IMG/VR virus record: IMGVR_UViG_3300027686_000017
Span: 1 to 34,916 of that record
Length of the DNA: 34,916 nucleotides
Strand: one strand, 5' to 3'
Origin: a virus
The number at the start of each line of letters is the position of its first letter. The first letter of the stretch is position 1. The position numbers and the translations under genes were made by a program. The notes beneath the pieces were generated by a model that ran no database searches, was not told where the DNA came from, and was given only the letters and a program-made list of their open reading frames with translations. Of this stretch, positions 1-12,084 are shown in pieces.

Positions 1-40
1 CACCAGTAATCTTATCAAGTATTTTCTCGTTGACATTCAT
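1..40 (-). CDS. Head morphogenesis protein, 5' fragment (duplicate of the gene at 32711-34807)
   Basis: The minus strand reads ATG at 40-38 and gives MNVNEKILDKITG before running off the window edge. The full-length gene at 32711-34807 begins MNVNEQILDKITA, so this is the same gene cut by the linearisation point. The two copies differ at K/Q and G/A plus one silent change. All differences keep the frame. It should not be counted as a second gene. Confidence 0.85.
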   Translation of the reverse strand, partial: MNVNEKILDKITG

Positions 41-46
41 TATTCA

Positions 47-133
47 TTACCCAAATGGCGACATTGGTGGCATTGGCGAAGGTCTTTTTTCCTCTTTATC
101 AATCACGATAAACCTAACAAAAGCAGATAACAT
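47..133 (-). CDS. Small 28-residue protein between portal and head gene (copy 1)
   Basis: This is a short minus-strand frame, ATG at 133-131 to TAA at 49-47, lying between the portal gene and the Mu F-like head gene. The product has a hydrophobic N-terminal half and a proline/methionine-rich end (RPSPMPPMSPFG). The second copy at 34814-34900 differs by two amino-acid substitutions (F to V, K to E) with no frame break, which is weak support for coding. The ribosome-binding site is poor. Function is unknown; its place between portal and minor head protein would fit a minor structural or assembly protein, but a non-coding spacer is possible. Confidence 0.4.
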   Translation of the reverse strand: MLSAFVRFIVIDKEEKRPSPMPPMSPFG

Positions 134-175
134 TCCATTGGTGCTAGATTTATTATAAATCCTATCATGATTTAT

Positions 176-1486
176 TTAATCAAGGTTCATTGGGTTCTGT
201 AAGTCAATCCTATCTCTTTCATCTTCAACAGAAACATCATTAGCTATTACTTCACCCTTCTTCATGTTGTGTAAGAATGTTTCATGGCTTATTCCGCCTG
301 ATTGCCAAGCACCCATTAACGCTGTAAGGTCTTGTGCAGAAATCTTAGTGTCAGAGAAGTCAGTGTTTAGCTCTACTTCAATATCACCACTAACGCCTTC
401 CCATTCAGCCATTAAAGACAATGCCTTTGCAATACCTTCTTGAACTGATAACACAGCACCAACCAATACGGATGATTCAGAGTTTTGTCTGAGTCTTACT
501 GCTTCTGCTGACTCGACACCTGTTTTTTCTGTTTGTAATAGACTAGCACCAAGACTTGCCATAATGCTTCGTTTTTCTTCTACAGCCTTTTCTAATGCTT
601 GCAGTCCTTGACCAGTAAATTCTAAGTACCCAGCTCTACTAGACGAATCTGGCAATATCCAAGCTGAACCTGAACCAATTTTTAACTCACTGTCACCATC
701 AATTCCTGTTACATAAGGCGTAGGCAACGCTGTAAAGTGTCTGCCATGCTCTAAGTCAGCACTGGTTCTATACATTGACAGGTTAGTATCAACTAATGAC
801 ATCAGAGGCGGTTGTGTTGGATTAAGATTTAATTCATTACCACTTAATGCTACAAATGGGATTTCATTTAATGCTTGACCAACTTTAGTAGGATATATTT
901 CATTCCATAGACTCCAACCTTGCGAATCTCTCCAAATTCTAACAACATATTTACCATCTTCATCTATCATTAACTCTCTGTACTGAACTTCATAAGTCAT
1001 GTCATAAGTATCATTTAACGCATGAGCAACATAAGTTTCTTTTAAAACGATAACATCATCCATCCAGTTAGTCATTTGCTCTGTAGTGTAACCTGACAAA
1101 TAAGCCCTATCTTCCGTTCTGTCAATTAGTATTCCTTGTCTACCCATTAAGAGTTGCTCGGATAGCATATTAGAAATGAAATCTTTTAGGCTTACACCTG
1201 TACCTGTAATGTCTTGTGCTAATTCTAAAATTCTGTCAGGTGCATTTATGACTGGCTCAATACGCATAACAGCACCAACAAGCCCTTGTACTGTGTTCTT
1301 AATTGCATTGACATACATTGCTCTCATTACATAAGATTCGTATGATTTTTTGTCTTGACTTGATAGCTTAGGTAAGTAAACCTCACCTTTTTCTTTAACT
1401 TTATCTGAGCCTAAAAAAGAATCTCTGACCCTTGTCCACTTATTCTCTGTTTCTATATACAATGGATGTTTGCTTTCAATTCCCAT
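176..1486 (-). CDS. Portal protein (DUF4055 family)
   Basis: A 436-residue protein that resembles the DUF4055 family of phage portal proteins: an N-terminal segment with the signature region around KSYESYVMRAMYVNAIKNTVQGLVG (roughly residues 48-72), a central beta-rich region and a long helical C-terminal part with EKRSIMASLGASLLQ and ESAEAVRLRQ (about residues 300-335), as in the portal stem and crown. Portals form the dodecameric ring at the capsid vertex through which the terminase packages DNA. The gene starts 3 bases after the large-terminase gene ends and precedes the Mu F-like head gene across the window join, the usual terminase-portal-minor head order. Length is normal for the family. 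Confidence is high from both sequence and position. Confidence 0.88.
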   Translation of the reverse strand: MGIESKHPLYIETENKWTRVRDSFLGSDKVKEKGEVYLPKLSSQDKKSYESYVMRAMYVNAIKNTVQGLVGAVMRIEPVINAPDRILELAQDITGTGVSLKDFISNMLSEQLLMGRQGILIDRTEDRAYLSGYTTEQMTNWMDDVIVLKETYVAHALNDTYDMTYEVQYRELMIDEDGKYVVRIWRDSQGWSLWNEIYPTKVGQALNEIPFVALSGNELNLNPTQPPLMSLVDTNLSMYRTSADLEHGRHFTALPTPYVTGIDGDSELKIGSGSAWILPDSSSRAGYLEFTGQGLQALEKAVEEKRSIMASLGASLLQTEKTGVESAEAVRLRQNSESSVLVGAVLSVQEGIAKALSLMAEWEGVSGDIEVELNTDFSDTKISAQDLTALMGAWQSGGISHETFLHNMKKGEVIANDVSVEDERDRIDLQNPMNLD

Positions 1487-1489
1487 CTT

Positions 1490-2689
1490 TTAAACTCCTA
1501 TAACTTTAGCCAATCGTGGTTGTCCTTTTCTTTTAATCATTGGTTGCAATGCATATCTTAAAGCATCAATATAGTGATTATTAGAATCAACTATAGCTGG
1601 CAATATATCCTCTGTCAACCTATCTACTTTATAACTATATTTTAGAAATTCACTGGCTGTTTCCATACACCTACTATGAATATACACCTGTCTGAAACTT
1701 CTTATAAATTCTATACCATCTTCAATACTGCCGCCCCACTTGTGAACTGACTCAATTCTATATCCTTGCCTTCTAATATAGCTTATGGACTCAGGTCTAG
1801 CACTATCTGCTCTTATTATATGCTGTTTTGACATTGGAATTTCATCTATTAGTTTGTAGGTGTGGTCTAACTCGACTTGTCTGCCACCAGCTTCATAATC
1901 AATCCACAAACAATTGTCAAAAATATGGCATCTTAAAATAACTGTAGGGTCTTGGGAGAAGCCCCAATCTAATCCATAATAAAAAGTAGCATCAGGTGGT
2001 GCTACAAAGTCCATTACTGTCGATTTGTTTTTAAATATTTGTGCCTCAGTTGCTTTTCTGCACTCACCTTCCCAGATATGTAAGTAATCATTGTAATCTA
2101 ATGCTTTTTGATACTCCATCTCAGCTTTTAACTCATCCGTAAAATATGGGTTCTCATCCCAGTTAACTTTAACTGTGAGCTGGTCTGGTCTTTGATTGAC
2201 TATAAACTGTTGGTAAGTAGGGTCTGTTTCTAAGTTAGGATTAAGCGACAACCACAACTCAGAATTTTTTTTGCGTAAAATCGTTGGCGTAAGGATTCTC
2301 CAAGATATAGCTGGAATAGTTTGACATTCTTCAGCCCATGTAATGTCTATTCCTTCGAGAGATTTAATTTGTTGTGGGTCATGTTTAAGTCCATGAAAGA
2401 TAAACTCTGTGCCATTCTTGCCTCTAATAGAATCTCTATACACAGTGTAAAATTTTCCGAGGTCATATTTCTCAACGCAAGTAGATAGTAACTTATGAAC
2501 TGAATCCCTGATTGAGCCTTGAACTTCACGAGTGCAAAGTATTCGTTTCTTTTCTTTTAAACCTATTACTAACAATGCTAAAGCAAATGATGTAGATTTA
2601 CCACCACCTCGACCACCATAAAACGCTTTTACAGAATGTGGCTCTAGCAAACCCTCAAAGACATCTGGGATTTGTATCTTAGAAATCAT
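1490..2689 (-). CDS. terL: Terminase large subunit (TerL, Terminase_3-like)
   Basis: The DNA-packaging motor ATPase and nuclease, 399 residues. Walker A is GGRGGGKS at residues 25-32 and Walker B is IDITWAEE at 114-121, followed by a coupling motif near LSLNP (147-151). The RNase H-like nuclease half holds the expected acidic residues: D241 in YYGLDWG, D295 in IRADSARPES and D375 in the NNHYIDALRYAL segment. This arrangement fits the PBSX/SPP1-type Terminase_3 family. The start overlaps the small-terminase stop by 4 bases (ATGA), so the two are translationally coupled. All catalytic positions that I can recognise are intact. Confidence 0.95.
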   Translation of the reverse strand: MISKIQIPDVFEGLLEPHSVKAFYGGRGGGKSTSFALALLVIGLKEKKRILCTREVQGSIRDSVHKLLSTCVEKYDLGKFYTVYRDSIRGKNGTEFIFHGLKHDPQQIKSLEGIDITWAEECQTIPAISWRILTPTILRKKNSELWLSLNPNLETDPTYQQFIVNQRPDQLTVKVNWDENPYFTDELKAEMEYQKALDYNDYLHIWEGECRKATEAQIFKNKSTVMDFVAPPDATFYYGLDWGFSQDPTVILRCHIFDNCLWIDYEAGGRQVELDHTYKLIDEIPMSKQHIIRADSARPESISYIRRQGYRIESVHKWGGSIEDGIEFIRSFRQVYIHSRCMETASEFLKYSYKVDRLTEDILPAIVDSNNHYIDALRYALQPMIKRKGQPRLAKVIGV

Positions 2690-3036
2690 TTTGACTTAAC
2701 GAACTCTACCTGTACTGAGAAATCACCTTCTACATCAAGCTCTTGTCGTTCTACATAGCCACGACCCTTTCCTTGTGTCTTTAGAAATAGGTCTATGGCT
2801 CGTAACTTAACAGTTTCATTAGTAGTAGCCATTAAAGAATGTAATCCTTCCTCTGCAATGTCTAGGCTTTCTTCTCTTATATCTTGCAGTTGGTCTTTAT
2901 CTTTCAAGGCTCTATCTCTTACAGCAATTCTTGAGATGTCAACTCCATACTCTTTTTTATAAAGCCTTACAGCTCTAGCATAGAGTCCTGCACTCTCTCT
3001 AAGTCCACCCCAAAATTCATCATTTGATAATTTCAT
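2686..3036 (-). CDS. terS: Terminase small subunit
   Basis: A 116-residue, largely helical protein directly upstream of and overlapping the large terminase by 4 bases. The centre (REESLDIAEEGLHSLM, about residues 54-69) and the NETVKLRAIDLFLKTQGKGRG segment (about 73-93) look like the oligomerisation helices found in many small terminases, which bind the packaging site and load DNA onto the motor. The N-terminal helices (SRIAVRDRALKDKDQL) would be the DNA-binding part. The family is divergent, so the call rests on both gene order and the characteristic central segment. Confidence 0.8.
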   Translation of the reverse strand: MKLSNDEFWGGLRESAGLYARAVRLYKKEYGVDISRIAVRDRALKDKDQLQDIREESLDIAEEGLHSLMATTNETVKLRAIDLFLKTQGKGRGYVERQELDVEGDFSVQVEFVKSK

Positions 3037-3040
3037 GTTT

Positions 3041-3060
3041 TTGTTAAGTTTTGTTAAGTT
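3041..3060. repeat. Exact tandem 10-bp repeat before the small terminase gene
   Basis: The plus strand carries two head-to-tail copies of TTGTTAAGTT, filling the short gap between the SSB-like gene and the small terminase start at 3036. It could be a protein-binding site, part of a packaging start site or chance AT-rich repetition. Only the repeat itself is certain. Confidence 0.6.
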
Positions 3061-3398
3061 TAAAAATCATCATCATCAGGAAAATCTCTACCCTTATCAC
3101 CCATAAATGGTTCGTTAACTGCTGATTCTACAGCATTTGCTACAAAAGGCAACTCAACCTTACCTGTAAGCATTTTGTTTCCTGTGCTTGTTACATACAA
3201 TTCATCTGTATATTGTTTTGTAACATCATCCCAAGTATTTCTAAATCTAAAAGCTATTTCTAAGTCTTTACCATCTACATTTATATAGGCTTTTAGAATA
3301 GGTTTCTTTGTTGCTTGTATAGCTTCAACACCTTTTTTGCTAAATAATCCTTGTGCAATAAAAATAGTTGATGTGTTTGGTTTTGCTTCGTATGCCAT
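3060..3398 (-). CDS. Probable ssDNA-binding protein (acidic C-terminal tail)
   Basis: A 112-residue protein whose body has alternating hydrophobic and charged stretches compatible with a beta-barrel (LKAYINVDGKDLEIAFRFRN; DELYVTSTGNKMLTGKVELP) and which ends in a strongly acidic tail with a terminal phenylalanine, DFPDDDDF. Bacterial SSB ends in a DDDIPF-type tip, and T7 gp2.5 ends in an acidic tail with a final Phe; both recruit partner enzymes through it. The neighbourhood (annealing protein upstream) also suits an SSB role. There is no clear family signature, so the function is inferred from the tail, size and context. It starts in a TAATG overlap with the gene at 3398-3781. Confidence 0.45.
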   Translation of the reverse strand: MAYEAKPNTSTIFIAQGLFSKKGVEAIQATKKPILKAYINVDGKDLEIAFRFRNTWDDVTKQYTDELYVTSTGNKMLTGKVELPFVANAVESAVNEPFMGDKGRDFPDDDDF

Positions 3399-3781
3399 TA
3401 TTTTTTACTCCTAATTTTTGATAATAATGAGTAGCTTTTTGTTACTAAACTACCCAATTGTTCTACTGTAATTGTATTAGTGCCATCTGACCGAATTGAT
3501 GCAGGTAGCCATCCTTTTTTAGTAGACATTCTGTTAATAGCTTTTGATGTAAAAACCACTCCATGAAACGCCTGACAATGAGCAACACTGTAACCTTTAA
3601 TAGTTGACCATTTTAGTATGTCTTTATCATTGGTTGTCCACCCTCTCATACTTTGAGCGTGTGCAACAGTCCAACCTAAGTCATTCTTTAATCTGAGTAT
3701 CTCTATTCTGTCTGTAAATCTGTCTTTATAAGCAAGTGAAGGGTCGCTTAGATGTTCTATAAATTGCTCATAAGTAATCAT
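3398..3781 (-). CDS. Hypothetical protein with two 27-residue 'VAHxQ' repeats
   Basis: A 127-residue protein not matched to a named family. Residues 36-62 and 63-89 are two imperfect 27-residue repeats sharing the core G(W/Y)(T/S)VAHxQ, followed by a variable stretch and a lysine. The repeats look like a helix-turn unit and somewhat resemble ankyrin-like 'G-x-T-x-x-H' phrasing, but two units are too few to decide. The C-terminus is basic (SKIRSKK). It starts after a 133-bp structured leader with a good ribosome-binding site (GGAGAG) and overlaps the downstream SSB-like gene by one base. Function unknown. Confidence 0.7.
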   Translation of the reverse strand: MITYEQFIEHLSDPSLAYKDRFTDRIEILRLKNDLGWTVAHAQSMRGWTTNDKDILKWSTIKGYSVAHCQAFHGVVFTSKAINRMSTKKGWLPASIRSDGTNTITVEQLGSLVTKSYSLLSKIRSKK

Positions 3782-3914
3782 TCACTCTCCAAATTAGTAG
3801 TTACTTAGGGTAACAACTCCCCGATACGACATCTCTGCCAACCTAACGAGGGAAAGGTTTAGGGAATGAAAGCCCTAGTAAAACCCCCGAATACTGTTTC
3901 GGCTACAGTAATTC
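3782..3914 (-). ncRNA. Candidate structured leader RNA
   Basis: A 133-base gene-free stretch between the annealing-protein stop and the next start, about 44% GC by my count and clearly richer than its surroundings. Reading the minus strand I see four hairpins: ACTGT/ACAGT (3893-3909), TAGGG/CCCTA (3860-3877, extendable by GGTT/AACC), GGCA-GAGA-TGTC with a GNRA loop (3828-3839), and GTTAC/GTAAC (3800-3814). A motif recurs twice: GTATTCGGGG (3885-3894) and GTATCGGGG (3819-3827). This is compatible with a regulatory leader or a processed small RNA. I cannot assign it to a known riboswitch class. Confidence 0.45.
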
Positions 3915-4511
3915 TTAAATTGTTGCTACAGGATTTTCAAATAATCTAGCGTGGTAATCCTGTACTTGTACTAAGCCTTTATCACTGGCTTCTTCATAAA
4001 TATTTGTAGCCAGCTCTATATCTCCATTAGCTTTTGCTATATCTAAATCATCTTTCATTTGTACAACTTTAGCACCATATTGTTGTGCTGGTGTTAAGGG
4101 TTTATTATACGCACTTGGTTCTTTTTTAGGTTTTGAATTAGAAAAATCTTCTGCTTCACATTCCGAGTAGTGTCCTAGCGTGTAAAAACCACAATTTTTT
4201 AACAGACTGCGACTTAATGCTCTTTTTTGAGCCATCTCCAATAAATAGAAATTGTTACAGCTCTTGCCTATCTTTGGACTGTTCATAGCTGAAGCAAACA
4301 TTGTAATAGGCGGTTTACCTTCAAGGGTAGTAATACACTCCATAGCACAATAAGTTTCAGTACATGCAATAATTTTATACTCTACCTTAACTTTAGACTT
4401 AGCTTCAATCTTCTCAATGCCCTCTCTCTTAATAATTGTGTAGTGAGCATGTGGAAACATATCTGTTTTTTCCAAGCCATATTTTAAATACAAATCTTTT
4501 AATACACTCAT
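3915..4511 (-). CDS. Probable single-strand annealing (ERF/Sak-type) recombination protein
   Basis: A 198-residue protein. The N-terminal half is beta-rich (KVKVEYKIIACTETYCAMECITT), followed by a helix with YLLEMAQKRALSRSLLKNCGFY (about residues 89-110), which resembles the 'EMAxTRAxGRAL' signature of ERF and related phage annealing proteins. A charged linker (SNSKPKKEPS) then leads to a short helical tail. Such proteins anneal complementary strands during phage recombination and replication. The ATGA overlap with the winged-helix gene and proximity to nuclease and SSB-like genes support a recombination role. The family match is from memory of the signature only, so confidence is moderate. 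Confidence 0.5.
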   Translation of the reverse strand: MSVLKDLYLKYGLEKTDMFPHAHYTIIKREGIEKIEAKSKVKVEYKIIACTETYCAMECITTLEGKPPITMFASAMNSPKIGKSCNNFYLLEMAQKRALSRSLLKNCGFYTLGHYSECEAEDFSNSKPKKEPSAYNKPLTPAQQYGAKVVQMKDDLDIAKANGDIELATNIYEEASDKGLVQVQDYHARLFENPVATI

Positions 4512-4735
4512 TATGTTCTCCCTTTATAAACATACTCAGCCCACTTACATTGCACATCAAATCTGTTTGTACCTTCTACTATATTGGTATCAAACACATG
4601 ACCAAGTTGTTTTAAATCAAATATTACAGCCGCTAATCTCATAATGCCATAAGTATCATCTGCTTGGCGTGGCGTAATACTTCCTTTAGTCCTAACATAC
4701 GCTAGGACTTGTTCTTTTTGATTACTCATTTTCAT
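4511..4735 (-). CDS. Small winged-helix (HTH_39-like) protein
   Basis: 74 residues. The pattern QKEQVLAYVRTKGSITPRQA followed by a helix with GIMRLAAVIFDLKQLGHVF and a short wing is typical of phage helix-turn-helix domains of the HTH_39 type, which bind DNA as small regulators. I use the ATG at 4735 because AAGGAG lies about 7 bases upstream; the ATG two codons later would also fit. It overlaps the gene on each side by a few bases. It is one of two obvious DNA-binding proteins in the early block and thus a candidate regulator of the repeated promoter motif. Confidence 0.7.
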   Translation of the reverse strand: MKMSNQKEQVLAYVRTKGSITPRQADDTYGIMRLAAVIFDLKQLGHVFDTNIVEGTNRFDVQCKWAEYVYKGRT

Positions 4736-4871
4736 TTTCCATCTCCTTTAAGTCTTTAGATTGTTGTTCTTGCCAATTGACAGGAACTAAATTATCATAA
4801 TGAATACCATCACTAATATAGTAAATTTCACCAGTATCTTCCATTTCTACAACTTCTCTGCTACCCTTCAT
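4722..4871 (-). CDS. Small hypothetical acidic protein (49 aa)
   Basis: I start this gene at the ATG at 4871, which overlaps the stop of the upstream 59-residue gene as ATGA and has AAGGA a suitable distance before it. The open frame extends to 4919, but that longer form would overlap the upstream gene by 52 bases. The product (MKGSREVVEMEDTGEIYYIS..., ending KEMENENE) is acidic, with a short beta-like core. No family recognised. It overlaps the winged-helix gene start. Confidence 0.55.
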   Translation of the reverse strand: MKGSREVVEMEDTGEIYYISDGIHYDNLVPVNWQEQQSKDLKEMENENE

Positions 4872-5047
4872 CTTAACCATCCTTGCATGTGTACCACATA
4901 CGGAGTTAATCCAATACAAAATCCTAAAACAAAGTACCTGCCTTGTTTTGTAGATTTTTTAAATTTTTGATGAGGGATTTGATTTCGTCTAAACTCACTT
5001 TGAATAAATCCATGTTTCCATAAGAAATGCTTTATAGTTCTAATCAT
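4868..5047 (-). CDS. Small basic hypothetical protein (59 aa)
   Basis: Minus-strand frame from ATG at 5047 to TGA at 4870-4868. Its start forms TAATG with the stop of the zinc-finger-like gene upstream, and GGAG lies before it; its stop forms ATGA with the next gene. These tight couplings on both sides are the main support. The product is basic, begins MIRTIKHFLWKHGF, and contains a hydrophobic run (YFVLGFCIGLTPYVV, about residues 38-52) that might be a membrane segment. No family recognised. Confidence 0.6.
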   Translation of the reverse strand: MIRTIKHFLWKHGFIQSEFRRNQIPHQKFKKSTKQGRYFVLGFCIGLTPYVVHMQGWLR

Positions 5048-5199
5048 TATTTTTTCTCCTTAATAATGTTTGCACATTTAGTTGAACAACAAATTGTGTC
5101 ATATCTCATTGGCTCAATACCAAATCCAAAACCAGTTCTTGAATTGCATATCCAGCAATAAGTTGGTTGGGTCTGTGTTTTAGTTGTGTCTTTAGTCAT
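5047..5199 (-). CDS. Small zinc-ribbon-like protein (50 aa)
   Basis: ATG at 5199 preceded by a strong AAGGAG ribosome-binding site, ending at TAA 5049-5047. The product contains CWIC (residues 15-18) and, after about 19 residues, CCSTKC (37-42). That gives two cysteine pairs spaced like a small zinc ribbon, in a context (YCWIC...CCSTKCAN) often seen in phage treble-clef or ribbon proteins. It is the first gene downstream of promoter-like site 5255-5283. The target (DNA, RNA or protein) cannot be read from the sequence. Confidence 0.7.
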   Translation of the reverse strand: MTKDTTKTQTQPTYCWICNSRTGFGFGIEPMRYDTICCSTKCANIIKEKK

Positions 5200-5254
5200 T
5201 TGTATCTCCTTGTTTTGGTTAAAAACTGTAAGATTTAATTACCTTACACAGAAC

Positions 5255-5283
5255 ATCTTACGCTCTTAGTTCATATAAAGCAA
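5255..5283 (-). promoter_or_regulatory. Promoter-like site with spacer motif (site B)
   Basis: On the minus strand: TTGCTT (5283-5278), a 17-bp spacer TATATGAACTAAGAGCG, then TAAGAT (5260-5255). The spacer shares ATGAACTAAGAGCG with the ACGAACTAAGGGCG core of site A. The -35 side overlaps the last codons and stop of the Ref/HNH-like gene, and the site ends 56 bases upstream of the zinc-ribbon-like gene start. Confidence 0.6.
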
Positions 5284-5540
5284 GTTTTATTTACTTTATT
5301 TAATAATTGCTCCTGCGTTCCATATACTTCTTCCCAGACTCTCATACCCATGTGATGAATACCTTGTCCGCCTCTATGATGTTCTACGCATAAAGGAATA
5401 GTATTAGAGTCATCAGCCTTCTTGCTTAGACTTGAATATTTATAACCAATTAAATGATGAATTTCAGCAGGCCTCATACAAATCACGCATCCATGTTCAG
5501 CTAATGCTTCAAATCTAATTTTGCGTTCTTTCGGTTTCAT
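5271..5540 (-). CDS. Ref/HNH-like nuclease (RecA-dependent nuclease family)
   Basis: 89 residues with a metal-binding layout characteristic of HNH/Ref nucleases: C18xxC21, PAEIHH with H28/H29, then C51xxHH (H54/H55), RGGQGIHHMG with H62/H63, and a terminal WEEVYGTQEQLL helix. Phage P1 Ref cuts DNA at RecA-made D-loops; the family's core, without P1 Ref's long N-terminal arm, is about this size. The start overlaps the alpha-CTD-like gene by 26 bases. It would act with the annealing protein and VRR-NUC in recombination. The stop codon lies inside promoter-like site B. Confidence 0.75.
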   Translation of the reverse strand: MKPKERKIRFEALAEHGCVICMRPAEIHHLIGYKYSSLSKKADDSNTIPLCVEHHRGGQGIHHMGMRVWEEVYGTQEQLLNKVNKTCFI

Positions 5541-5904
5541 ATTGTTTCTTTAATTTACGCCACAAATCCAATCCTTCGCCTATTTCTTTTAGAGAACCTC
5601 TGCCCAAGTTAGGAACTTTTAGTAAACTTCGAGTACCATAATCAGATTTTGCATTATAAAGATGCTCTAAATGTTCCATTGTGTAAATATTTTCAGCTTT
5701 AAAAATACCTCTAACTCTCGCATTAAATTCACAATTTTCAACAGGTGTGTGTTTTTCTTCATCATAAACATTCTTTACAAAATGTTTAAATTCTCTATTA
5801 AAATTCGTCAACATATAATTTTCAAAATTTACTGGTGCTTGTCTTTGCATTTTTAATTTCATCATTTCAATAAATATAATACTTCTTGCTTCTTCTACAT
5901 TCAT
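5515..5904 (-). CDS. RNA polymerase alpha C-terminal-domain-like protein
   Basis: 129 residues. The second half closely follows bacterial RpoA alpha-CTD: NARVRGIFKAENI (61-73) aligns with the helix carrying E. coli R265, and LLKVPNLGRGSLKEI (94-108) aligns with the HhH hairpin. R63 matches R265, N99 matches N294, G101 matches G296, S104 matches S299 and E107 matches E302. N268 becomes G and K298 becomes G. The first 55 residues are a helical extension with no recognised family. The alpha-CTD contacts DNA UP elements and activators, so this protein could compete with or replace it; that is inference. It sits in an early operon, starting at the stop of the DUF1367 gene. Confidence 0.72.
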   Translation of the reverse strand: MNVEEARSIIFIEMMKLKMQRQAPVNFENYMLTNFNREFKHFVKNVYDEEKHTPVENCEFNARVRGIFKAENIYTMEHLEHLYNAKSDYGTRSLLKVPNLGRGSLKEIGEGLDLWRKLKKQYETERTQN

Positions 5905-6386
5905 TAGTAAAACCCCTCTAATTGTTTGACAGTATTGTCTAAATCATCATCTGAGTAATTAGTTAAAACATGTTCTAAAATAACTTTGGTTGTAAGTTTC
6001 CATAGTTCATTAAATTCTTTTTCATCCATTTTTGCAAATGATATGGACTTTGCTTCAATCCGAACAGAACCATCAATACGATAAACAGCATTAAACATTC
6101 CACACAAAATAATTAAATCTTTACGAAATCGGTCAAAAGACTTTTCAGGTACAACATCTTTCCATTTTGAATCTTCTAAAGAACTAGGTTTCCAATGGTC
6201 AAAAGCAAACTTTACAAGTGAAAACCATTTTTTATGAAACCTGTAATTTCTAGGCTTAACAAAATTTGAAGTTACAACATCATTCTTTATTAACTTGCCA
6301 ACAAACTCTGCTGAAGTTTGGTCTGCTGGAACTAATATTCCATGACTTGCACCTTCTGCTTCATATTTTTGTAGAGTTATCATCAT
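5904..6386 (-). CDS. DUF1367 family protein
   Basis: 160 residues. The segment with VKPRNYRFHKKWFSLVKFAFDHW (about residues 44-66) and the downstream helix resemble DUF1367, a family found in phage replication/recombination (nin-like) regions of lambdoid and other phages. Biochemical function is not established to my knowledge. The start ATGATG overlaps the DUF3310 stop (ATGA), so translation is coupled. No membrane segments or cysteines of note. Confidence 0.65.
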   Translation of the reverse strand: MMITLQKYEAEGASHGILVPADQTSAEFVGKLIKNDVVTSNFVKPRNYRFHKKWFSLVKFAFDHWKPSSLEDSKWKDVVPEKSFDRFRKDLIILCGMFNAVYRIDGSVRIEAKSISFAKMDEKEFNELWKLTTKVILEHVLTNYSDDDLDNTVKQLEGFY

Positions 6387-6601
6387 TTCATTTCATCCAT
6401 TGTCATATCCATTTGAGATTCAATTAACTTATCTAAATACCATCTAGCTTTTCTTAAATCTTGTATACCAGACTTTTCTTTGTATCTAGTAATGTACTTA
6501 ACAATGTTGCCCTCAATAAATGTCATGTCATTGCTCGTAATAAAATCAGTTACTTCTATGCTACCTTTTTGGTAATAGCTTGGAGTTATGTTATTGCTCA
6601 T
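6383..6601 (-). CDS. DUF3310 family protein
   Basis: 72 residues when started at the ATG at 6601, which overlaps the upstream stop as ATGA; a longer frame begins at 6616. The core FIEGNIVKYITRYKEKSGIQDLRKARWYLDKLI is the DUF3310 signature, a small helical domain found in many phages, sometimes fused to nucleotide kinases such as T7 gp1.7. Its own activity is unclear. The pattern N-x-x-K-Y-x-x-R is intact. Confidence 0.75.
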   Translation of the reverse strand: MSNNITPSYYQKGSIEVTDFITSNDMTFIEGNIVKYITRYKEKSGIQDLRKARWYLDKLIESQMDMTMDEMK

Positions 6602-7152
6602 AATTCTTTCATCCATTGGTTAGCTTCGGTACTGTTCATTCCAGCTTCAGCCATGTAATATTTCTTAGCTTGGTACTGAATATAAGAAGGTATGTCAGTC
6701 CATCCAACACCTTGAGGCTTGTGGTCTTTAAAAAAACTCATTTTTGATTCATGGTCTGATTGATTCCATTGTGAGTGCCAGTCTGTTTGTACATCTAAAT
6801 TATGTGCCAATTTTTTAATCTCCTCGTTGTTAGTTGGGGCTAATTGCCTCATAGTCTTAATTATTTGTGCTGGTAAAGGTGGATGTGCTAAACCCATATC
6901 GTAGTGTTGATTTAATGCAATGTGCCATGTGTTTTGTTGATGAATAGTTAGCCTAGAAATCTGCTCAGAAAAATCAGTTATTGTTTTAACCCTGTCAGAC
7001 TTACTTCTAATAAAATATCCATAGTTCCTCTCACACCAAGAAGAAATCTCCGTAGCAATCGTAATGCAATCTAATTTCTTATTATCAATTTCGTTATTAG
7101 CGTACATTTCTAGCATCCAATACTGCTTGATGTATGTCAGCATAACTGTCAA
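6598..7152 (-). CDS. Hypothetical protein downstream of the replication gene
   Basis: Up to 184 residues, overlapping the DUF6291-like gene by 56 bases; internal ATGs at 7116 and 7107 would reduce this overlap to 20 and 11 bases, so the start is uncertain. The protein is helical with many W and H residues (TDWHSQWNQSDHESKMSFF; KPQGVGWTDIPSYIQYQAKKYYM). The position just after a replication-initiator-like gene would suit a helicase-loader or lambda P-like partner, but I see no AAA or other motif to support that. Unrecognised. Confidence 0.6.
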   Translation of the reverse strand: MTVMLTYIKQYWMLEMYANNEIDNKKLDCITIATEISSWCERNYGYFIRSKSDRVKTITDFSEQISRLTIHQQNTWHIALNQHYDMGLAHPPLPAQIIKTMRQLAPTNNEEIKKLAHNLDVQTDWHSQWNQSDHESKMSFFKDHKPQGVGWTDIPSYIQYQAKKYYMAEAGMNSTEANQWMKEL

Positions 7153-7699
7153 TAACTTTAGGTTCTGGCTTTACTTTACCTAACCAGTTAGATACAAATT
7201 TTGGCGTACCTCTTGCTGTCTTTTGTTTTTCTGGATTAGATATTAACCAAGTCCGCATTTTTTGTAATTCATGGTCAATGTTAATAGTTGGATATGTTTT
7301 GTTTAATTCATCAATCAACAAATTAGTTAGTCTGTATTCTTCTCCACTTTTAAGTGGCATTAGAATTTTACATTTAACATTTACATTATCATTTACATTA
7401 TCATTTACATTAGGTTCTTGTTTGGTTAACCTTAGGTTATCGTTAGGTTCTGCGTTGGTTATCTTTTGGTTAGCTGGTCTACCACCCTTTGAGCCATTAA
7501 TAAACTTCCTATGATTAGCTTGTAACTGTGGCTTAATCATTAGGAACATAGCTCTTGGTAAGGGTTTTAGCTCAATCTCTGTAGAGTTTAATCCATATTC
7601 AAAGATAGCATCATAGAGTTGCAACCTGTCTTTCTGGGTTAAGGCTTTTAAACCAATATAGAAACTCCGATATACAATGAATGAATCTTTTTTTATCAT
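7097..7699 (-). CDS. DUF6291-like replication protein
   Basis: 200 residues when started at the ATG at 7699, which has GGAG 7 bases upstream; the frame is open from 7711, but that ATG lies within the ribosome-binding site. The N-terminal domain (SFIVYRSFYIGLKALTQKDR, LQLYDAIFEYGLN, KPLPRAMFLMIKPQLQANHR, then NGSKGGRP) is the DUF6291 pattern seen in phage DnaD/O-like replication proteins. A polar linker follows, containing NVNDNVNDNVNVK encoded by a short DNA repeat, and then a C-terminal helical domain with TARGTPKFVSNWLGKVK, as in DnaD-type proteins. It is the only replication-initiation candidate in the genome. Confidence 0.65.
   Translation of the reverse strand: MIKKDSFIVYRSFYIGLKALTQKDRLQLYDAIFEYGLNSTEIELKPLPRAMFLMIKPQLQANHRKFINGSKGGRPANQKITNAEPNDNLRLTKQEPNVNDNVNDNVNVKCKILMPLKSGEEYRLTNLLIDELNKTYPTINIDHELQKMRTWLISNPEKQKTARGTPKFVSNWLGKVKPEPKVIDSYADIHQAVLDARNVR
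7375..7412. repeat. Tandem ATTTACATTATC repeat within the replication gene
   Basis: The plus strand contains consecutive copies of a 12-bp unit, ATTTACATTATC, encoding an N-V-N-D repeat in the linker of the DUF6291-like protein. Iterons inside initiator genes mark replication origins in lambda-type phages (in O), so this is a possible origin. Simple slippage in a linker-coding region is the alternative. Confidence 0.5.
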
Positions 7700-7740
7700 T
7701 TTTTTCTCCATTTTTTAGTCTTTTAGTATACACAATTAAA

Positions 7741-7763
7741 ATCTTAGGTGTCCTTAATTCGTA
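7741..7763 (-). promoter_or_regulatory. Possible promoter-like site with spacer motif (site E, weak)
   Basis: On the minus strand TACGAATTAAGGA (7763-7751) is followed by TAAGAT (7746-7741). The TACGAATTAAGG core matches the other sites, but the distance to the -10-like hexamer is 2 bases longer and no good -35 is seen. It covers the end of the XRE gene and lies about 40 bases before the replication gene. Confidence 0.3.
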
Positions 7764-7932
7764 AATGAGTTTGCAAGATTCTCAAATAAATCTCTTTAAA
7801 TGGATGTCCTTGTTCATATTTTTGCCATTGCCTGATACCAACACCAACAATATCTGCACACTCTCTTTGCTTTAGTCCATGAGATACTCTTAGTTCTTTA
7901 ATCTCACTACCCATCATATTTGATTGTTTCAT
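7744..7932 (-). CDS. XRE/Cro-type helix-turn-helix regulator
   Basis: 62 residues comprising little more than one HTH domain: IKELRVSHGLKQRECADIVGVGIRQWQKYEQG, where KQRECADIVGV is the turn and RQWQKYEQG the recognition helix, with the W-x-x-Y/W-E-x-G ending seen in Cro/CI-like domains. Starts at 7932, 7917 and 7914 are all possible; the longest overlaps the upstream gene by 26 bases. With no dimerisation domain beyond the final helix it is Cro-like in size. It is a good candidate to bind the repeated spacer motif, one copy of which overlaps its own 3' end. Confidence 0.78.
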   Translation of the reverse strand: MKQSNMMGSEIKELRVSHGLKQRECADIVGVGIRQWQKYEQGHPFKEIYLRILQTHLRIKDT

Positions 7933-8119
7933 CTGCTTCTAAATCCTTTTCATTAATAAAATATAAAATTATGTTTGTTCCATCATGGCTTTGAAGATTC
8001 CATTCAATTGAACTTCTATAGCCATTTGCTATGTCTTGCAATTGCTTTCCGTCAGATTCGTTAATTGGAACAACAACATGATGTTCTCCTTCGGGTACAA
8101 ATATAAATTCATCACTCAT
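7907..8119 (-). CDS. Hypothetical small acidic protein (70 aa)
   Basis: I start at the ATG at 8119, which has GGAGAG about 7 bases upstream; an ATG at 8134 lacks this. The product begins MSDEFIFVPEGEHHVVVPI and is acidic with alternating beta-like strands (SSIEWNLQS, TNIILYFIN). No family recognised. It overlaps the XRE gene, suggesting coexpression. Confidence 0.55.
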   Translation of the reverse strand: MSDEFIFVPEGEHHVVVPINESDGKQLQDIANGYRSSIEWNLQSHDGTNIILYFINEKDLEADETIKYDG

Positions 8120-8148
8120 AATAACTCTCCTCAAATAAAGTTATTATA

Positions 8149-8433
8149 CTACTTCCCCCAACAGTTCCAAATTTCATCCCAGAGGTTTTCAGAAAAATCA
8201 TAGTAAGTACCTATGTCATTACCGCCAAGATAAGGATGAAACTCTTTTGCTATTTTTTTTAAATCAGCTATTGCCTCAATAAGCAATTCAGCGTTCTTTT
8301 CATTAAAACGAATCATGCCTGTATCTTTGTCTACTAAGTGTTCAAAAGTTATTACACCTTCATGTACTTCATTAACAAATTCTGTATATGCTATATCGTT
8401 TAATTCTGCTTCACTATATAAATTCATATCCAT
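8149..8433 (-). CDS. Hypothetical protein (94 aa)
   Basis: The start at 8433 is chosen because AAAGGAG sits just upstream; the frame is open further, to 8472, without a ribosome-binding site. The protein is acidic and helical, ending NLWDEIWNCWGK. It is the first gene behind promoter-like site C (8500-8528). No family recognised. Confidence 0.6.
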   Translation of the reverse strand: MDMNLYSEAELNDIAYTEFVNEVHEGVITFEHLVDKDTGMIRFNEKNAELLIEAIADLKKIAKEFHPYLGGNDIGTYYDFSENLWDEIWNCWGK

Positions 8434-8499
8434 AATATCTCCTTTGTGTGTGCCAGTTTTTCGACATGGCAAGGTCGTAAGGAAAACTATTTAAGTTAA

Positions 8500-8528
8500 A
8501 TTATACGCTTTCAATTCGTATTTAAATC
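8500..8528 (-). promoter_or_regulatory. Promoter-like site with spacer motif (site C)
   Basis: A perfect TATAAT (8505-8500 on the minus strand) is preceded by the 17-bp spacer AATACGAATTGAAAGCG and a poor -35 (GATTTA, 8528-8523). The spacer repeats the ACGAAYTRARRGCG core of the other sites. It overlaps the last codons of the gene at 8511-8834 and leads into the gene at 8433. A weak -35 beside a conserved spacer would fit an activator-dependent promoter. Confidence 0.6.
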
Positions 8529-8834
8529 ATTAATTACAGCTTCCGCAACTGAAACCATACATCCACAATCATCACAAGGAATATTAATCCATTTGTCATA
8601 ATCTATTTCTTGACCTTTGGCATAAAATTTATAGCCACTAACTTTTGTAACAGCTTTTTGTATGATTGGTTTTGCCTCAGTCATTTTGCTTTCAACAAGT
8701 TGCTCCACAAACATCTCTACAAGGTTGCTCACTTCCTGCCTACTTGCCATTTTTGATGAAGGCTTACCATCTATTAAGTTTTTGATATGGCTTCGCTGTT
8801 GGTCGTTTAATGTAACTTGGATATTAGTATTCAT
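8511..8834 (-). CDS. Hypothetical protein with C-terminal CxxCxC cluster (107 aa)
   Basis: The N-terminal part is helical (LNDQQRSHIKNLIDGK; SRQEVSNLVEMFVEQLVESK), and the C-terminal part contains CDDCGC (about residues 88-93) that might bind metal or form a redox site, although one cluster alone is not a full zinc-binding set. It is translationally coupled to the 39-residue basic gene upstream by ATGA. No family recognised. Confidence 0.6.
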   Translation of the reverse strand: MNTNIQVTLNDQQRSHIKNLIDGKPSSKMASRQEVSNLVEMFVEQLVESKMTEAKPIIQKAVTKVSGYKFYAKGQEIDYDKWINIPCDDCGCMVSVAEAVINDLNTN

Positions 8835-8950
8835 TTTTTACTCCTTAATAATTTTAGTTTTTGTCTTTTGTTTTTTCTTCTTTCTTTTCTTGCAAGAGAG
8901 TTTTGTTTGCCCCCTTGCAAAAAGTCAGCAGTCTTTTTAGAATTAGACAT
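8831..8950 (-). CDS. Small, highly basic protein (39 aa)
   Basis: ATG at 8950 to TGA at 8833-8831. It overlaps the previous gene by 8 bases at its start and the next by ATGA at its stop, the same coupling used throughout this block. Over a third of the residues are Lys or Arg, concentrated in the second half (ARKERRKNKRQKLKLL), which suggests nucleic-acid or ribosome contact. The lysine-rich coding sequence also ends in an AGGAG that serves as the next gene's ribosome-binding site. Confidence 0.5.
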   Translation of the reverse strand: MSNSKKTADFLQGGKQNSLARKERRKNKRQKLKLLRSKK

Positions 8951-9338
8951 GAGTTGCAACCTTAACATCATTGTCAATTCTTTTAACTTCATGACTTAAA
9001 ATAGCATCCTTGTTTTGCTCAAAAAATTCATCAGTACAGACAAAAGTCCATTCCCATCTTTTAGCTCTTTCTTCTTTAACAATATCCCAACCATCAAATT
9101 CGCCTTCACAAAAACAAACAGCTTCACAGCCATATGCTTTTGGGTCAAGAACTTCGTGATTTTTGTACTGGTCAGCACCACCTGCGTGTTGAGCATATCG
9201 TATTCTTAAAAAACCAAATTCAATATGTACCCAATCATTGCTAGCTTCATCATAATAAACTTGACCTGTGTAATGGTCAGAATGAAAATCGCCTACTTTT
9301 TCGCCTTTTTTTAAATTGTCAAAATTAAATATTTGCAT
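8943..9338 (-). CDS. Hypothetical protein (131 aa)
   Basis: A soluble 131-residue protein beginning MQIFNFDNLKKGEKVGDF, with a beta-rich first half (GQVYYDEASNDWVHIEFGFLR) and a tryptophan/acid-rich second half (EGEFDGWDIVKEE; WEWTFVCTDEFFE). Preceded by AAGGAG and, further upstream, by a strong hairpin at 9359-9374. No family recognised. Confidence 0.65.
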   Translation of the reverse strand: MQIFNFDNLKKGEKVGDFHSDHYTGQVYYDEASNDWVHIEFGFLRIRYAQHAGGADQYKNHEVLDPKAYGCEAVCFCEGEFDGWDIVKEERAKRWEWTFVCTDEFFEQNKDAILSHEVKRIDNDVKVATHV

Positions 9339-9358
9339 TTATTTCTCCTTTTTGGGTT

Positions 9359-9374
9359 GGGGGATTGCTCCCCC
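9359..9374 (-). promoter_or_regulatory. GC-rich hairpin with GCAA tetraloop upstream of the 131-aa gene
   Basis: The minus strand reads GGGGGA-GCAA-TCCCCC, a perfect 6-bp stem with a GNRA loop, lying between two genes and about 20 bases before a start codon. The 3' side is followed by AACCCAAAAAGGAG rather than a U-tract, so it is not a standard intrinsic terminator in the direction of the operon. An mRNA stability or translation-control hairpin is more likely. Confidence 0.5.
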
Positions 9375-9381
9375 TGTTAAT

Positions 9382-9705
9382 TTATTTATTTATAATGTCG
9401 ATATGTATAGCTTGAGTAACATCAGAACCACGCTTTTGTAAAAACGCTTTACACAACATTCCTTCGTACATAAAATATTGTTCCAATTTAATTTCACGCC
9501 TAACAACTACTTCTTGTTTGTGCTTAGTAATAGCAAAACCTACTTTCATAGCATATACTTCAGGGTAGTCAATCGTGTGTTGGATTTCAGCTTCAGTTGC
9601 GTAAGTATTATTTTTACCCATATAACTACGACTATCACCTAGTGTTACATTTATAGTGCCTGTTTTTGCAATAAATTTTACTGCTTCGTTATCTTTAAAT
9701 TCCAT
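9382..9705 (-). CDS. Hypothetical protein, first gene of the early operon (107 aa)
   Basis: Beta-rich and soluble (VKFIAKTGTINVTLGDSRSYM; KQEVVVRREIKLEQYFMYEG). AAGGAG lies upstream, and the promoter-like site A is 53 bases further on. As the first gene behind the best-defined early promoter, it is probably among the earliest expressed. No family recognised. Confidence 0.65.
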   Translation of the reverse strand: MEFKDNEAVKFIAKTGTINVTLGDSRSYMGKNNTYATEAEIQHTIDYPEVYAMKVGFAITKHKQEVVVRREIKLEQYFMYEGMLCKAFLQKRGSDVTQAIHIDIINK

Positions 9706-9757
9706 TTGTATCTCCTTTATTTGGTTTTATGAAGTTATTATTAACTCCATATGAAAG

Positions 9758-9786
9758 AGTCTACGCCCTTAGTTCGTATAAGTCAA
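9758..9786 (-). promoter_or_regulatory. Promoter-like site with spacer motif (site A), start of early operon
   Basis: On the minus strand TTGACT (9786-9781), 17-bp spacer TATACGAACTAAGGGCG, then TAGACT (9763-9758). It lies in the only divergent intergenic region of the genome (9706-9848), upstream of the block running from 9705 to 3060. The spacer core is shared with sites at 5255, 8500 and 32496. Confidence 0.65.
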
Positions 9787-9848
9787 GTCATTTATTAAAA
9801 TAAATTCTGTAACATAGAAATAGGTTTAAAAATTAAACACCTAATAAT

Positions 9849-10193
9849 ATGCAAGATACTGAACATCAATTACAAAAAGCCATTACACAATACTTAAATT
9901 TGTTAGGCTTATGTTGGTGGGCTGTTCCAAATGGTGGCAGAAGAAACATAATCACAGCTACTAGGTTAAAAAGTGAAGGGGTTAAATCAGGAATACCAGA
10001 CATTAGTCTAATATATAAAGGACAATTTTATGGCATTGAGGTTAAAAAACCTAAGACCGATACACCTAAAGGTACTTTAAGTAAGGTTCAAAAGGATAGG
10101 ATAGCCCAAATTGAGCGTTCTGGTGGAGTTGTTGGTATTGCCTACTCAATAGTTGATGTAGAGAAGTTATTGCAAATTTGGGGTATTAGCTGA
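9849..10193 (+). CDS. VRR-NUC domain nuclease
   Basis: 114 residues, a stand-alone VRR-NUC domain. The PD-(D/E)xK core is visible as GVKSGIPD with D51, then YGIEVKKP with E64 and K66, and Q81 in the following helix (LSKVQ). Such small phage nucleases are Holliday-junction or flap-type resolvases in related families. It is the only gene on the plus strand. Its start lacks a convincing ribosome-binding site (AACACCTAATAATATG), and its end overlaps the metallophosphoesterase gene tail-to-tail by 8 bases, so the two transcripts would be antisense at the junction. Confidence 0.85.
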   Translation: MQDTEHQLQKAITQYLNLLGLCWWAVPNGGRRNIITATRLKSEGVKSGIPDISLIYKGQFYGIEVKKPKTDTPKGTLSKVQKDRIAQIERSGGVVGIAYSIVDVEKLLQIWGIS

Positions 10194-10947
10194 GTTCGTT
10201 TCCCCATACACAAGCCTTACCATCTATAATATCTATGACTTCTACTTGAAAATCACCATTTTTATAGAAATGTACGATACCAAAAGCATGACTCCAGTTA
10301 TGTAATCTGCCTTTAAGCCAAGTATTATTTTCAGCAGACATATCTTTTAAACAACCCATTGCCCAAGCGTTTATGTTTCCAGCTAGGCTAGTACCAGACA
10401 ATCTGCCCACATCATGTACATGCCCATACATTATATTAGTTAGATAACGAGATAAATGCTGACGAGTATGCCCACCATTTGCACCAGTGTAAGCTCCATG
10501 TATAAAAGATAACTTACCAATAGTAAGCACTTCATTGTATTTGTGATATTTATAACCTCTTTCATCCCATTTGCAAGCCTTTCTAAATGTGTACTGGTCA
10601 AGGAATGGATTTTCCAAAACGAAAGCATCAAGCCATTCATCATGGTTGCCTGCAAGTAGAAATTTTTTTTTGCAACCTACTTCATCTAAAACTTTATCAA
10701 ACTTATCAATTTGTTTATTGACTGCTTTTATTTCTTTTTCTATTTCAGGAAGTTGGTACTCAAGAGGTGGTCGTTTTCTTCGTTTGTATTTATGGCTAGA
10801 TACAGAACTCCACTCGCCTACATCACCGAGGTTTATAAATATTGAGGGTTTGACTAACTGTATGGCTTTAAGAACAACTTTAACTGCGGAGTTGTCTTGA
10901 ATGGGAAAATGCTGGTCAGGAATTACTATCGCAGTGTCTACTATCAT
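10186..10947 (-). CDS. Calcineurin-like metallophosphoesterase
   Basis: 253 residues with all dimetal-site motifs in order: D11QH13, G41D42VGEW, G100N101H102D103, H150GAYTG and G175H176VH178. This is the canonical metallophosphoesterase fold that hydrolyses phosphodiester or phosphomonoester bonds with Mn/Fe-type ions. Substrate cannot be told: phage homologues have been suggested to act on nucleic acids, cyclic nucleotides or other phosphoesters. It is the last gene of the tail/lysis transcription direction and starts just after the holin-like gene, so it is probably expressed late. Confidence 0.88.
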   Translation of the reverse strand: MIVDTAIVIPDQHFPIQDNSAVKVVLKAIQLVKPSIFINLGDVGEWSSVSSHKYKRRKRPPLEYQLPEIEKEIKAVNKQIDKFDKVLDEVGCKKKFLLAGNHDEWLDAFVLENPFLDQYTFRKACKWDERGYKYHKYNEVLTIGKLSFIHGAYTGANGGHTRQHLSRYLTNIMYGHVHDVGRLSGTSLAGNINAWAMGCLKDMSAENNTWLKGRLHNWSHAFGIVHFYKNGDFQVEVIDIIDGKACVWGNELS

Positions 10948-11385
10948 TTACCTTCGAGAAGTTATACTTTGACCAAAATACATGCCAACTACTGAAAGTA
11001 TAGCATGACCAAGCCAGTCTGGAGTAACTATACCTTCCAATTCGACCCATGTTGTTACATCTTTAGTAAAGTCTAAGAATAGTAATTTAAACCCTTCTGT
11101 AGTTATAACAGGAATATGAGTTGTAGTTTCAAACAGTGCTGGTGCTAGTAATATAAACCCAGCCATAGTCATAAAAGAAATAACTAAGAATCGTCTTATC
11201 CAGTTTGCATTAGGATTTACAAATGCTCTAGCACTTGCTACGCTTTTTTCTGATTCACTAAATCTGCGTATTAAGGCGTTTTGTTGTTCAGCTTTGTCAG
11301 CGTTAGACTGACTCCACATTTTCATGACAGCACCCCCTACTGTTGATACTAGCATAGTAAGTATTTCAGCAGGGAGTCCAAACAT
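10948..11385 (-). CDS. Holin-like protein (3TM-holin family type)
   Basis: 145 residues beginning MFGLPAEILTMLVSTVGGAVMKMWSQ, then a charged helix and two further hydrophobic segments: RRFLVISFMTMAGFILLAPALF (about 65-86) and LGHAILSVVGMYFGQSI (about 125-141). The layout, including NPNANWIRRFLV, resembles the GTA_holin_3TM / Holin_3TM_2 family that forms the membrane lesion at lysis. It lies in a run of small membrane proteins after the fibre genes. Confidence is moderate because a neighbouring endolysin was not found. Confidence 0.62.
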   Translation of the reverse strand: MFGLPAEILTMLVSTVGGAVMKMWSQSNADKAEQQNALIRRFSESEKSVASARAFVNPNANWIRRFLVISFMTMAGFILLAPALFETTTHIPVITTEGFKLLFLDFTKDVTTWVELEGIVTPDWLGHAILSVVGMYFGQSITSRR

Positions 11386-11388
11386 TAT

Positions 11389-11499
11389 CTAACTACCAGT
11401 TAGCCAGTTAAACAAAACAGCAACTACAACTATACAAGCAAATATTATTAAACTTGTTTTACCTGTTGCTCTTTTTTTTATATCTTCTAATCCGTACAT
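11389..11499 (-). CDS. Small single-pass membrane protein (36 aa)
   Basis: ATG at 11499 to TAG at 11391-11389. The product is MYGLEDIKKRATGKTS followed by a hydrophobic run LIIFACIVVVAVLFNWL, with a short basic N-terminus. It overlaps the upstream gene by 13 bases and ends 3 bases before the holin-like gene. Size, topology and place suggest an accessory lysis protein or antiholin-like peptide, but that is inference. Confidence 0.6.
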   Translation of the reverse strand: MYGLEDIKKRATGKTSLIIFACIVVVAVLFNWLTGS

Positions 11500-11723
11500 A
11501 AGACCCCCATTTTATTATTCATTAACTTCAGAGTAGTAATGAAACCTAGCTCTGAAATGGCATAATACCCGACAGCACCATAGAATGTCCATCTTATTTG
11601 GTTCAATGTGTGTGTAATTCTGTCGAGTTTTAGGTTTGTATCTTCACTTTTACTAAACAATTTAGAGATTTGGTCAGAGTGTTTTGCAACCTTATGCTCA
11701 AGCATTTCAATTCTGTTATCCAC
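11487..11723 (-). CDS. XhlA-like coiled-coil membrane protein
   Basis: 78 residues starting at GTG 11723. Residues 1-45 form a heptad-patterned helix (IEMLEHKVAKHSDQISKLF, LKLDRITHTLNQIRW), followed by one hydrophobic segment (YGAVGYYAISELGFIT). This matches the arrangement of haemolysin XhlA-type proteins found in phage lysis cassettes. The start overlaps the end of the 22-residue basic gene. Confidence 0.55.
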   Translation of the reverse strand: MDNRIEMLEHKVAKHSDQISKLFSKSEDTNLKLDRITHTLNQIRWTFYGAVGYYAISELGFITTLKLMNNKMGVLCTD

Positions 11724-11784
11724 GCTTCTTTTTCTTTTTTACTGGAACACTTTTATATGGATTCTTTGTAGACTTATAAGCCAT
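11716..11784 (-). CDS. Tiny lysine-rich peptide (22 aa)
   Basis: A 22-residue frame, MAYKSTKNPYKSVPVKKKKK followed by RG, starting at ATG 11784. The start is backed by an excellent ribosome-binding site, AGGAG 7 bases upstream, and the stop overlaps the next gene's GTG start. It has no hydrophobic segment and ends in five lysines. Function unknown. Without the ribosome-binding site I would not report it. Confidence 0.5.
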   Translation of the reverse strand: MAYKSTKNPYKSVPVKKKKKRG

Positions 11785-11793
11785 TGTTATCTC

Positions 11794-12084
11794 CTATTTA
11801 TTTAAACCAACTGCACTACCTGTCAAGATAGCTCCAAAGGCTAAGTGAAACAATCCACCGCCCATTAAAGTAAATGGTTCGTGTTGACCAGTAAGTTTGG
11901 TCATCAATTCCATTTGTATCATTACATGCTCTGTAGAGTTTATTATATCCATAAATTGACTGATGTCTGGTCTATTCAAGCCATACCAAACAGGTACAAA
12001 CAGGAAATCGTAAAATGAAATTATGAGATAAATTATTAATGCAGTCCATCTCCAACGCATTGTACTGGTTTGAATATCTGTCAT
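11794..12084 (-). CDS. Small two-segment membrane protein, holin candidate (96 aa)
   Basis: The N-terminal segment WTALIIYLIISFYDFLFVPVWYGL (about 13-36) and the C-terminal segment MGGGLFHLAFGAILTGSAVGL (about 74-94) are hydrophobic, separated by an amphipathic helix (FMDIINSTEHVMIQMELMTK). Two membrane passes, short length and neighbouring membrane proteins make it a second holin/antiholin candidate. The ATG abuts the stop of the 34-residue membrane protein. Confidence 0.6.
   Translation of the reverse strand: MTDIQTSTMRWRWTALIIYLIISFYDFLFVPVWYGLNRPDISQFMDIINSTEHVMIQMELMTKLTGQHEPFTLMGGGLFHLAFGAILTGSAVGLNK

Follow-up and report, generated by a model that had tools for sequence, protein, structure and literature searches.

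The alpha-subunit C-terminal domain (alpha-CTD) of RNA polymerase is a hub that links bacterial activators and UP elements to the enzyme. A virus that appears to encode this domain as a free-standing protein raises the question of whether the resemblance is real and, if so, what a detached alpha-CTD might do for a phage. The case at hand lies in IMG/VR record IMGVR_UViG_3300027686_000017, analysed over its whole length of 34,916 nucleotides (the window). A 149-nt direct repeat at both ends of the window (1-149 and 34768-34916, 97% identical) suggests a genome that is probably almost complete, its ends overlapping imperfectly. At 5515-5904 the first-pass annotation proposed a stand-alone alpha-CTD-like protein, expressed from an early operon and forming part of a candidate transcription take-over system. 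The ORF list and translation give an ORF of 129 codons at exactly these coordinates, with the strand now settled as minus: the ORF starts with ATG at 5904 and its stop codon ends at 5515. The plus strand is interrupted there by many stops. The product, P0001, consists of a helical N-terminal segment followed by a stand-alone alpha-CTD-like domain, as judged from PF03118, a structural model and its fold matches. The gene recurs at 100% identity on two other IMG/VR contigs. A search for terminase relatives in bacterial genomes, as a route to the host, found none.

PF03118 (RNA_pol_A_CTD) is the only Pfam family that P0001 matches even at E<=10 (E 3.1e-4, residues 49-112), although its score of 20.8 bits falls just under the gathering cut-off of 23.8. 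NCBIfam matches are to RpoA models only, and 10 of 10 sequence matches in the PDB are RNA polymerase alpha subunits, all weak (E 0.16-0.48). Searches by tblastn return RpoA-like matches and one unannotated scaffold at E 0.06 or worse. In the alignments, the best identity to a host RpoA is 30 of 75 aligned residues, in Comamonas. Neither tblastn nor a genome scan found close homologs in isolate phages, plasmids or bacterial genomes. As a scale for such divergence, comparison of the solved Thermus alpha-CTD with that of E. coli yields just 26.8 bits. A profile built from 34 phage alpha-CTD proteins, with P0001 left out, gives P0001 49.8 bits, while 4000 shuffles of its parts reach 9.1 at most and no other ORF in the window exceeds 3.2 bits. 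By this P0001-free profile and its shuffles, chance similarity is rejected; the resemblance to alpha-CTD is, at the level of sequence comparison, beyond chance. Membership in another helix-hairpin-helix (HhH) family was rejected as well: PF03118 stands alone in Pfam at that threshold, no nuclease or ligase HhH family being matched there, and in PHROGs nothing turned up beyond a match of 10 residues at E 0.64. About 48 residues precede the domain, with no match to alpha-NTD, so P0001 is not an RpoA, only a protein carrying RpoA's CTD.

An AlphaFold2 model built on an alignment of 35 rows has block-mean pLDDT of 84-92 over most of the domain, falling to 75-80 around an insert described below. 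Foldseek with this model returns alpha subunits as its best 41 PDB matches (E 0.01-0.2), and with VIA-align residues 49-119 superpose on alpha-CTDs of known structure with Z between 9.1 and 7.3, the best superposition having 1.2 A over 57 residues. The predicted structure is thus the two-helix plus HhH fold of alpha-CTD. HhH domains of the RAD51 type match the same fold at Z 7.3-7.9, with 8-19% identity and no Pfam match at E<=10; since they reach Z 7.9, the fold alone is not exclusive, and it is the sequence that settles the family. In these Pfam and structure comparisons, no unrelated HhH nuclease or ligase offers a better match. Sequence, profile and predicted fold together bear out the identification of a stand-alone alpha-CTD-like protein.

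The domain spans residues 49-117 (5554..5760, minus strand) by its Pfam range, VIA-align range and alignments. The earlier alignment over residues 61-108 had found a genuine alpha-CTD match but drawn it too short. Its residue mapping holds in the present alignments: the counterparts of five DNA-contact residues are kept (R63 for R265, N99 for N294, G101 for G296, S104 for S299 and E107 for E302) and two are lost (N268 becomes G66, K298 becomes G103). That annotation had missed a seven-residue insert, YNAKSDY (Y83-Y89, 5638..5658, minus strand), which the alignments place between the counterparts of R284 and T285 in the loop of the 287 determinant. In E. coli, the 287 determinant contacts CRP, and N268 and K298 both matter for alpha-CTD function. 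The insert is absent from the other phage and bacterial sequences aligned; the protein of one sister contig, L156, has a longer loop there. R265 is critical for DNA binding, and the substitutions N268A and N268W abolish UP-element activation in E. coli (PMC11434276). Because the counterpart of N268 is glycine in P0001, DNA binding by P0001 itself is uncertain. The net charge of the domain is -1.

The N-terminal segment (residues 1-48, 5761..5904, minus strand) is modelled as two helices, 3-20 and 27-47, at pLDDT 53-76. It had been described as a phage-specific extension; the extra segment is indeed present, but it may not be private, as it resembles a helical module found in about 30 relatives. 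Hybrids with a shuffled P0001 N-terminus score as high in 26-48 of 5000 trials (p ~0.005-0.01), and with a profile of the N-terminal module alone P0001 does not rise above shuffles. Homology between this segment and the module is only suggested.

To place P0001 among its relatives, IMG/VR was scanned with a DNA pattern for PNLGxxSLxEI and then searched with an alignment (one of seven remote alpha-CTDs had proved too heterogeneous for this purpose). Across the loci gathered, 77 distinct ORFs carry the domain. More than 60 with a detached alpha-CTD remain in a rough, regex-based census that leaves out P0001, annotated phages and one host RpoA. The helical module (LLDxxAxEAM...AYxxAexM, RDKIAIAAM or RDYFAAxAM) accompanies the domain in 32 of these ORFs and sigma region 4 or another HTH in 10; the domain sits near the N-terminus in 4, other N-termini precede it in 18, and 3 are cut by contig ends. 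PF03118 E-values of the scanned relatives run from 4e-25 to 1e-4 (1e-17 to 4e-25, 52-88 bits, in the first scanned set), and P0001 has one of the weakest Pfam scores of the proteins scanned. The domain follows the module in most cases. It precedes a RDYFAAxAM...AYxxADAMLxAR module in L032 (4180-4629, plus strand), and it is inserted inside such a module in L125 (5815-6294) and L128 (843-1322, plus strand). The RDYFAA-type module matches phrog_2201, 37111 and 20565 (function unknown), and there are hints of a functional link between it and the alpha-CTD.

Four contigs that are viral or labelled as phage encode Sigma70 region 4 and alpha-CTD in a single polypeptide: L056 (2334-2912, minus strand), L100 (5512-6222, plus strand), L024 (475-840, minus strand) and L011 (927-1856, plus strand). 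In L056 the two parts score E 8.5e-12 (Sigma70_r4) and 1e-18 (PF03118). Going by their domain content, each such fusion would by itself recognize both -35 and UP elements. Proteins of this general kind already have names. Uncultured Caudovirales phage proteins in BFVD bear the UniProt name "RNA polymerase, alpha subunit, C-terminal," BFVD also has alpha-CTD proteins of Mycobacterium phage Mithril and Rhodococcus phage Finch, and tblastn against 50,697 phage records adds Ruegeria V16, Bacillus Goe8 and Microbacterium Mazun. P0001 is therefore not unprecedented. The open-licence papers searched yielded no functional study of phage alpha-CTD proteins; the kind, already named in databases, appears never to have been studied. 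Four records of the phage collections (L010, L167, L168 and L169) contain a host-type rpoA, which lies beside rplQ in one of them and on an unannotated scaffold in the others; these records are probably bacterial. A tree of the domain (~60 residues) has weak nodes and serves only as a hint that the phage alpha-CTDs may be polyphyletic. Judged by sequence, P0001 belongs to a class of phage alpha-CTD proteins with scattered occurrence, within which it is divergent.

Conservation across the class was read from 71 aligned distinct sequences, including P0001 and one full-length RpoA. The core DNA contacts are nearly invariant: R265 in 70/70, N294 and G296 each in 71/71, S299 in 68/71 (the other 3 having Thr) and E302 in 69/71. 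N268 is kept in 34/71 (His in 16, Arg in 14) and K298 in 52/71, so neither is defining for phage alpha-CTD proteins. Positions that contact sigma are poorly kept (D259 13/71, E261 30/71), as are those that contact CRP (V287 variable, E288 16/71, R317 5/71, L318 6/71). With the core DNA contacts held and the sigma and CRP contacts not, DNA binding looks like the shared function of the class. In seven host RpoA sequences aligned as a control, R265, N268, N294, G296, K298, S299 and E302 are all kept. The contact determinants of bacterial RpoA also differ between phyla, and the loss of sigma and CRP contacts, set against a control of seven RpoA, may in part reflect host diversity.

The surroundings of the gene speak to its status. 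Directly upstream lies ninB (5904..6386, minus strand; phrog_319, E 7.3e-42), whose stop codon overlaps the P0001 start codon in the junction sequence TTTTACTAATGAATGTA. Directly downstream lies a Ref-like HNH nuclease gene (5271..5540, minus strand; phrog_1588, E 2.5e-16), the start of which is overlapped by the 3' end of the P0001 gene over 26 nt; by tblastn, phage relatives of this neighbor are annotated as RecA-dependent recombination enhancement nucleases. (An iterated HNH profile aimed at Ref matches HNH genes in general, and its counts were set aside.) With overlapping ends on both sides, the gene reads as part of an operon ninB - alpha-CTD - ref. The "early operon" of the first-pass annotation is supported as far as gene order goes, the gene lying between ninB and ref and upstream of the terminase genes; early expression would be a prediction from that order. 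Elsewhere in the window, a leader AACCAAAnnAAGGAGATACAAATG occurs exactly twice, at 5197-5220 and 9703-9726 (both minus strand), where no occurrence is expected; it stands just upstream of two start codons and looks like a translation signal. The gene block is otherwise tightly packed, with one 133-nt spacer at 3782-3914 (minus strand) holding a terminator-like hairpin CCGAAACAGTATTCGG and then GGGTTTTACT; this spacer has no Rfam match.

Sister phages, gathered via the two neighboring genes, provide 18 contigs with a ninB-ref junction. The slot is empty in 11 of them (<=54 nt between the genes), 6 have other small ORFs with no recognized alpha-CTD, and just 1, L156, has an alpha-CTD gene. The L156 product is a diverged alpha-CTD of 139 residues (PF03118 E 1.2e-4), flanked by a ninB and a ref that are 56% and 62% identical to those of the window. 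A further contig, L088, with a different NinB (phrog_72), shows the order NinB - x - alpha-CTD - x - phrog_1588. Variable versions of the junction are seen at window 5515-5904 and in L138, L144, L156, L157, L158, L159 and L160. The junction serves this phage group as a cargo slot with variable content, and the P0001 gene is accessory in its lineage. Either the slot has received alpha-CTD proteins more than once or it has rarely kept one.

Patchy occupancy of this kind speaks against a take-over system that is essential and in favor of a helper whose usefulness varies with the host or the conditions. The first-pass annotation had also pointed to a family of unusual promoter sites. Over window positions 1-12000, promoter-like sites number 41 against 49.9 expected from shuffles, and no repeated promoter-like family was found in that interval. 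A take-over system finds no support in these results, the gene being accessory cargo (1/18 sister contigs) and the promoter-like sites being at background. P0001 may still have some role in redirecting or tethering host polymerase.

P0001 is most likely an accessory DNA-binding factor at host polymerase promoters, a function that we infer. In its specific form, which we put a little short of an even chance, the proposal is that a free DNA-binding alpha-CTD changes how host polymerase uses upstream AT-rich elements. NinB, the Ref-like nuclease and P0001 would be produced together, in the early or middle phase of infection. The P0001 domain would bind DNA that is AT-rich and resembles UP elements; given glycine at the positions of N268 and K298, this binding would probably be weak or altered in specificity. 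The N-terminal helices might dimerize the protein or tether it to a partner. Promoter use by host polymerase would then be altered, through an added upstream DNA contact or through occupation of host alpha-CTD sites. Counting for this explanation are the gene order shared with L088 and the occupation of the L156 slot by a diverged alpha-CTD, and the Sigma70_r4 fusions on other viral contigs tilt the balance towards a role in transcription. Against it stand the two glycines, the domain's net charge of -1, promoter-like sites at background and the neighbors of the gene, which are recombination genes. Those neighbors invite the alternative of a recombination or replication helper, in which an (HhH)2 DNA-binding module of the alpha-CTD type would act on phage DNA rather than on promoters, alongside NinB and the Ref-like nuclease. 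Relatives elsewhere do lie near Sak annealase, RecE/YqaJ exonuclease, RusA, or NinB plus phrog_1588, and the fold is shared with the N-terminal DNA-binding domains of RAD51 (Z up to 7.9). This alternative nevertheless seems unlikely: RpoA is the only sequence match, ninB and ref persist in sister phages that lack the P0001 gene, the sigma-region-4 fusions point to transcription, and phage genes cluster for many reasons.

A free domain without alpha-NTD, which cannot join core polymerase in the normal way, could also act as a decoy, mimicking host alpha-CTD and titrating activators, sigma region 4 or UP elements. Host promoters that depend on activators would then be damped, with no recruitment of polymerase by the decoy. 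There is precedent for phage action on this host surface in T4, whose Alt and ModA ADP-ribosylate Arg265 of alpha (PMC2988021). Yet the insert between the 284 and 285 counterparts breaks the CRP-contact loop, the sigma and CRP contacts are unconserved in the class, although a mimic of those surfaces would need to keep them, and the gene is accessory; we regard a decoy as doubtful. Two contact residues turned to glycine, a loop insertion, a Pfam score near the bottom of the range scanned and a patchy presence might instead mark a diverging or decaying copy with little function left. That is quite improbable for an intact ORF with overlapping start and end, a predicted fold that is intact, and R265, N294, G296, S299 and E302 all in place.

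Beyond P0001, the preferred reading, a DNA-binding factor at host polymerase promoters, can be extended into a broader and more speculative proposal that is possible rather than probable. Free phage alpha-CTDs, the sigma-region-4 fusions among them, would be widespread and repeatedly acquired portable promoter-recognition modules that bias host polymerase, and the insertion in P0001 would free it from host activators. If this is true, supplying the alpha-CTD as a free domain, in some cases fused to sigma region 4, would be a simple means of re-aiming host polymerase. More than 60 distinct versions are found in viral contigs, with DNA-contact residues nearly invariant, and the idea is open to ordinary binding and reporter assays.

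Among known systems, the C-terminal domain of RpoA (PF03118) shares with P0001 its fold, the PNLG..SL.EI helix-hairpin-helix and the five contact counterparts. P0001 differs from RpoA in having no alpha-NTD or polymerase assembly domain and a helical N-terminus of its own, and from the RpoA CTD in glycine for N268 and K298 and a 7-residue insert in the 287-determinant loop. The named phage proteins (UniProt A0A6J5MNY7 and A0A6J5L490 among others, Mithril, Finch) are likewise detached alpha-CTDs, of ~110-150 residues. They are the top BFVD matches both of the P0001 model and of a model of the relative L064 (pLDDT 88; Z 12.9, 1.0 A and 50% identity against E. coli alpha-CTD); P0001 is the more diverged, at E 0.01 at best in BFVD versus 1e-9 for L064. 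The family with the LLDxxAxEAM module (L017, L064, L088, L086 and more; ~30 distinct) resembles P0001 in size, C-terminal domain and early or recombination neighborhood, and its member L088 shares the order NinB - alpha-CTD - phrog_1588; by comparison, the P0001 N-terminus is only suggestively related to theirs, and P0001 alone has the YNAKSDY insert. T4 Alt and ModA act on the host surface that P0001 would presumably involve, Arg265 and the UP-element contact (PMC2988021). Those proteins, however, are enzymes that modify host alpha, whereas P0001 would be a copy of the domain.
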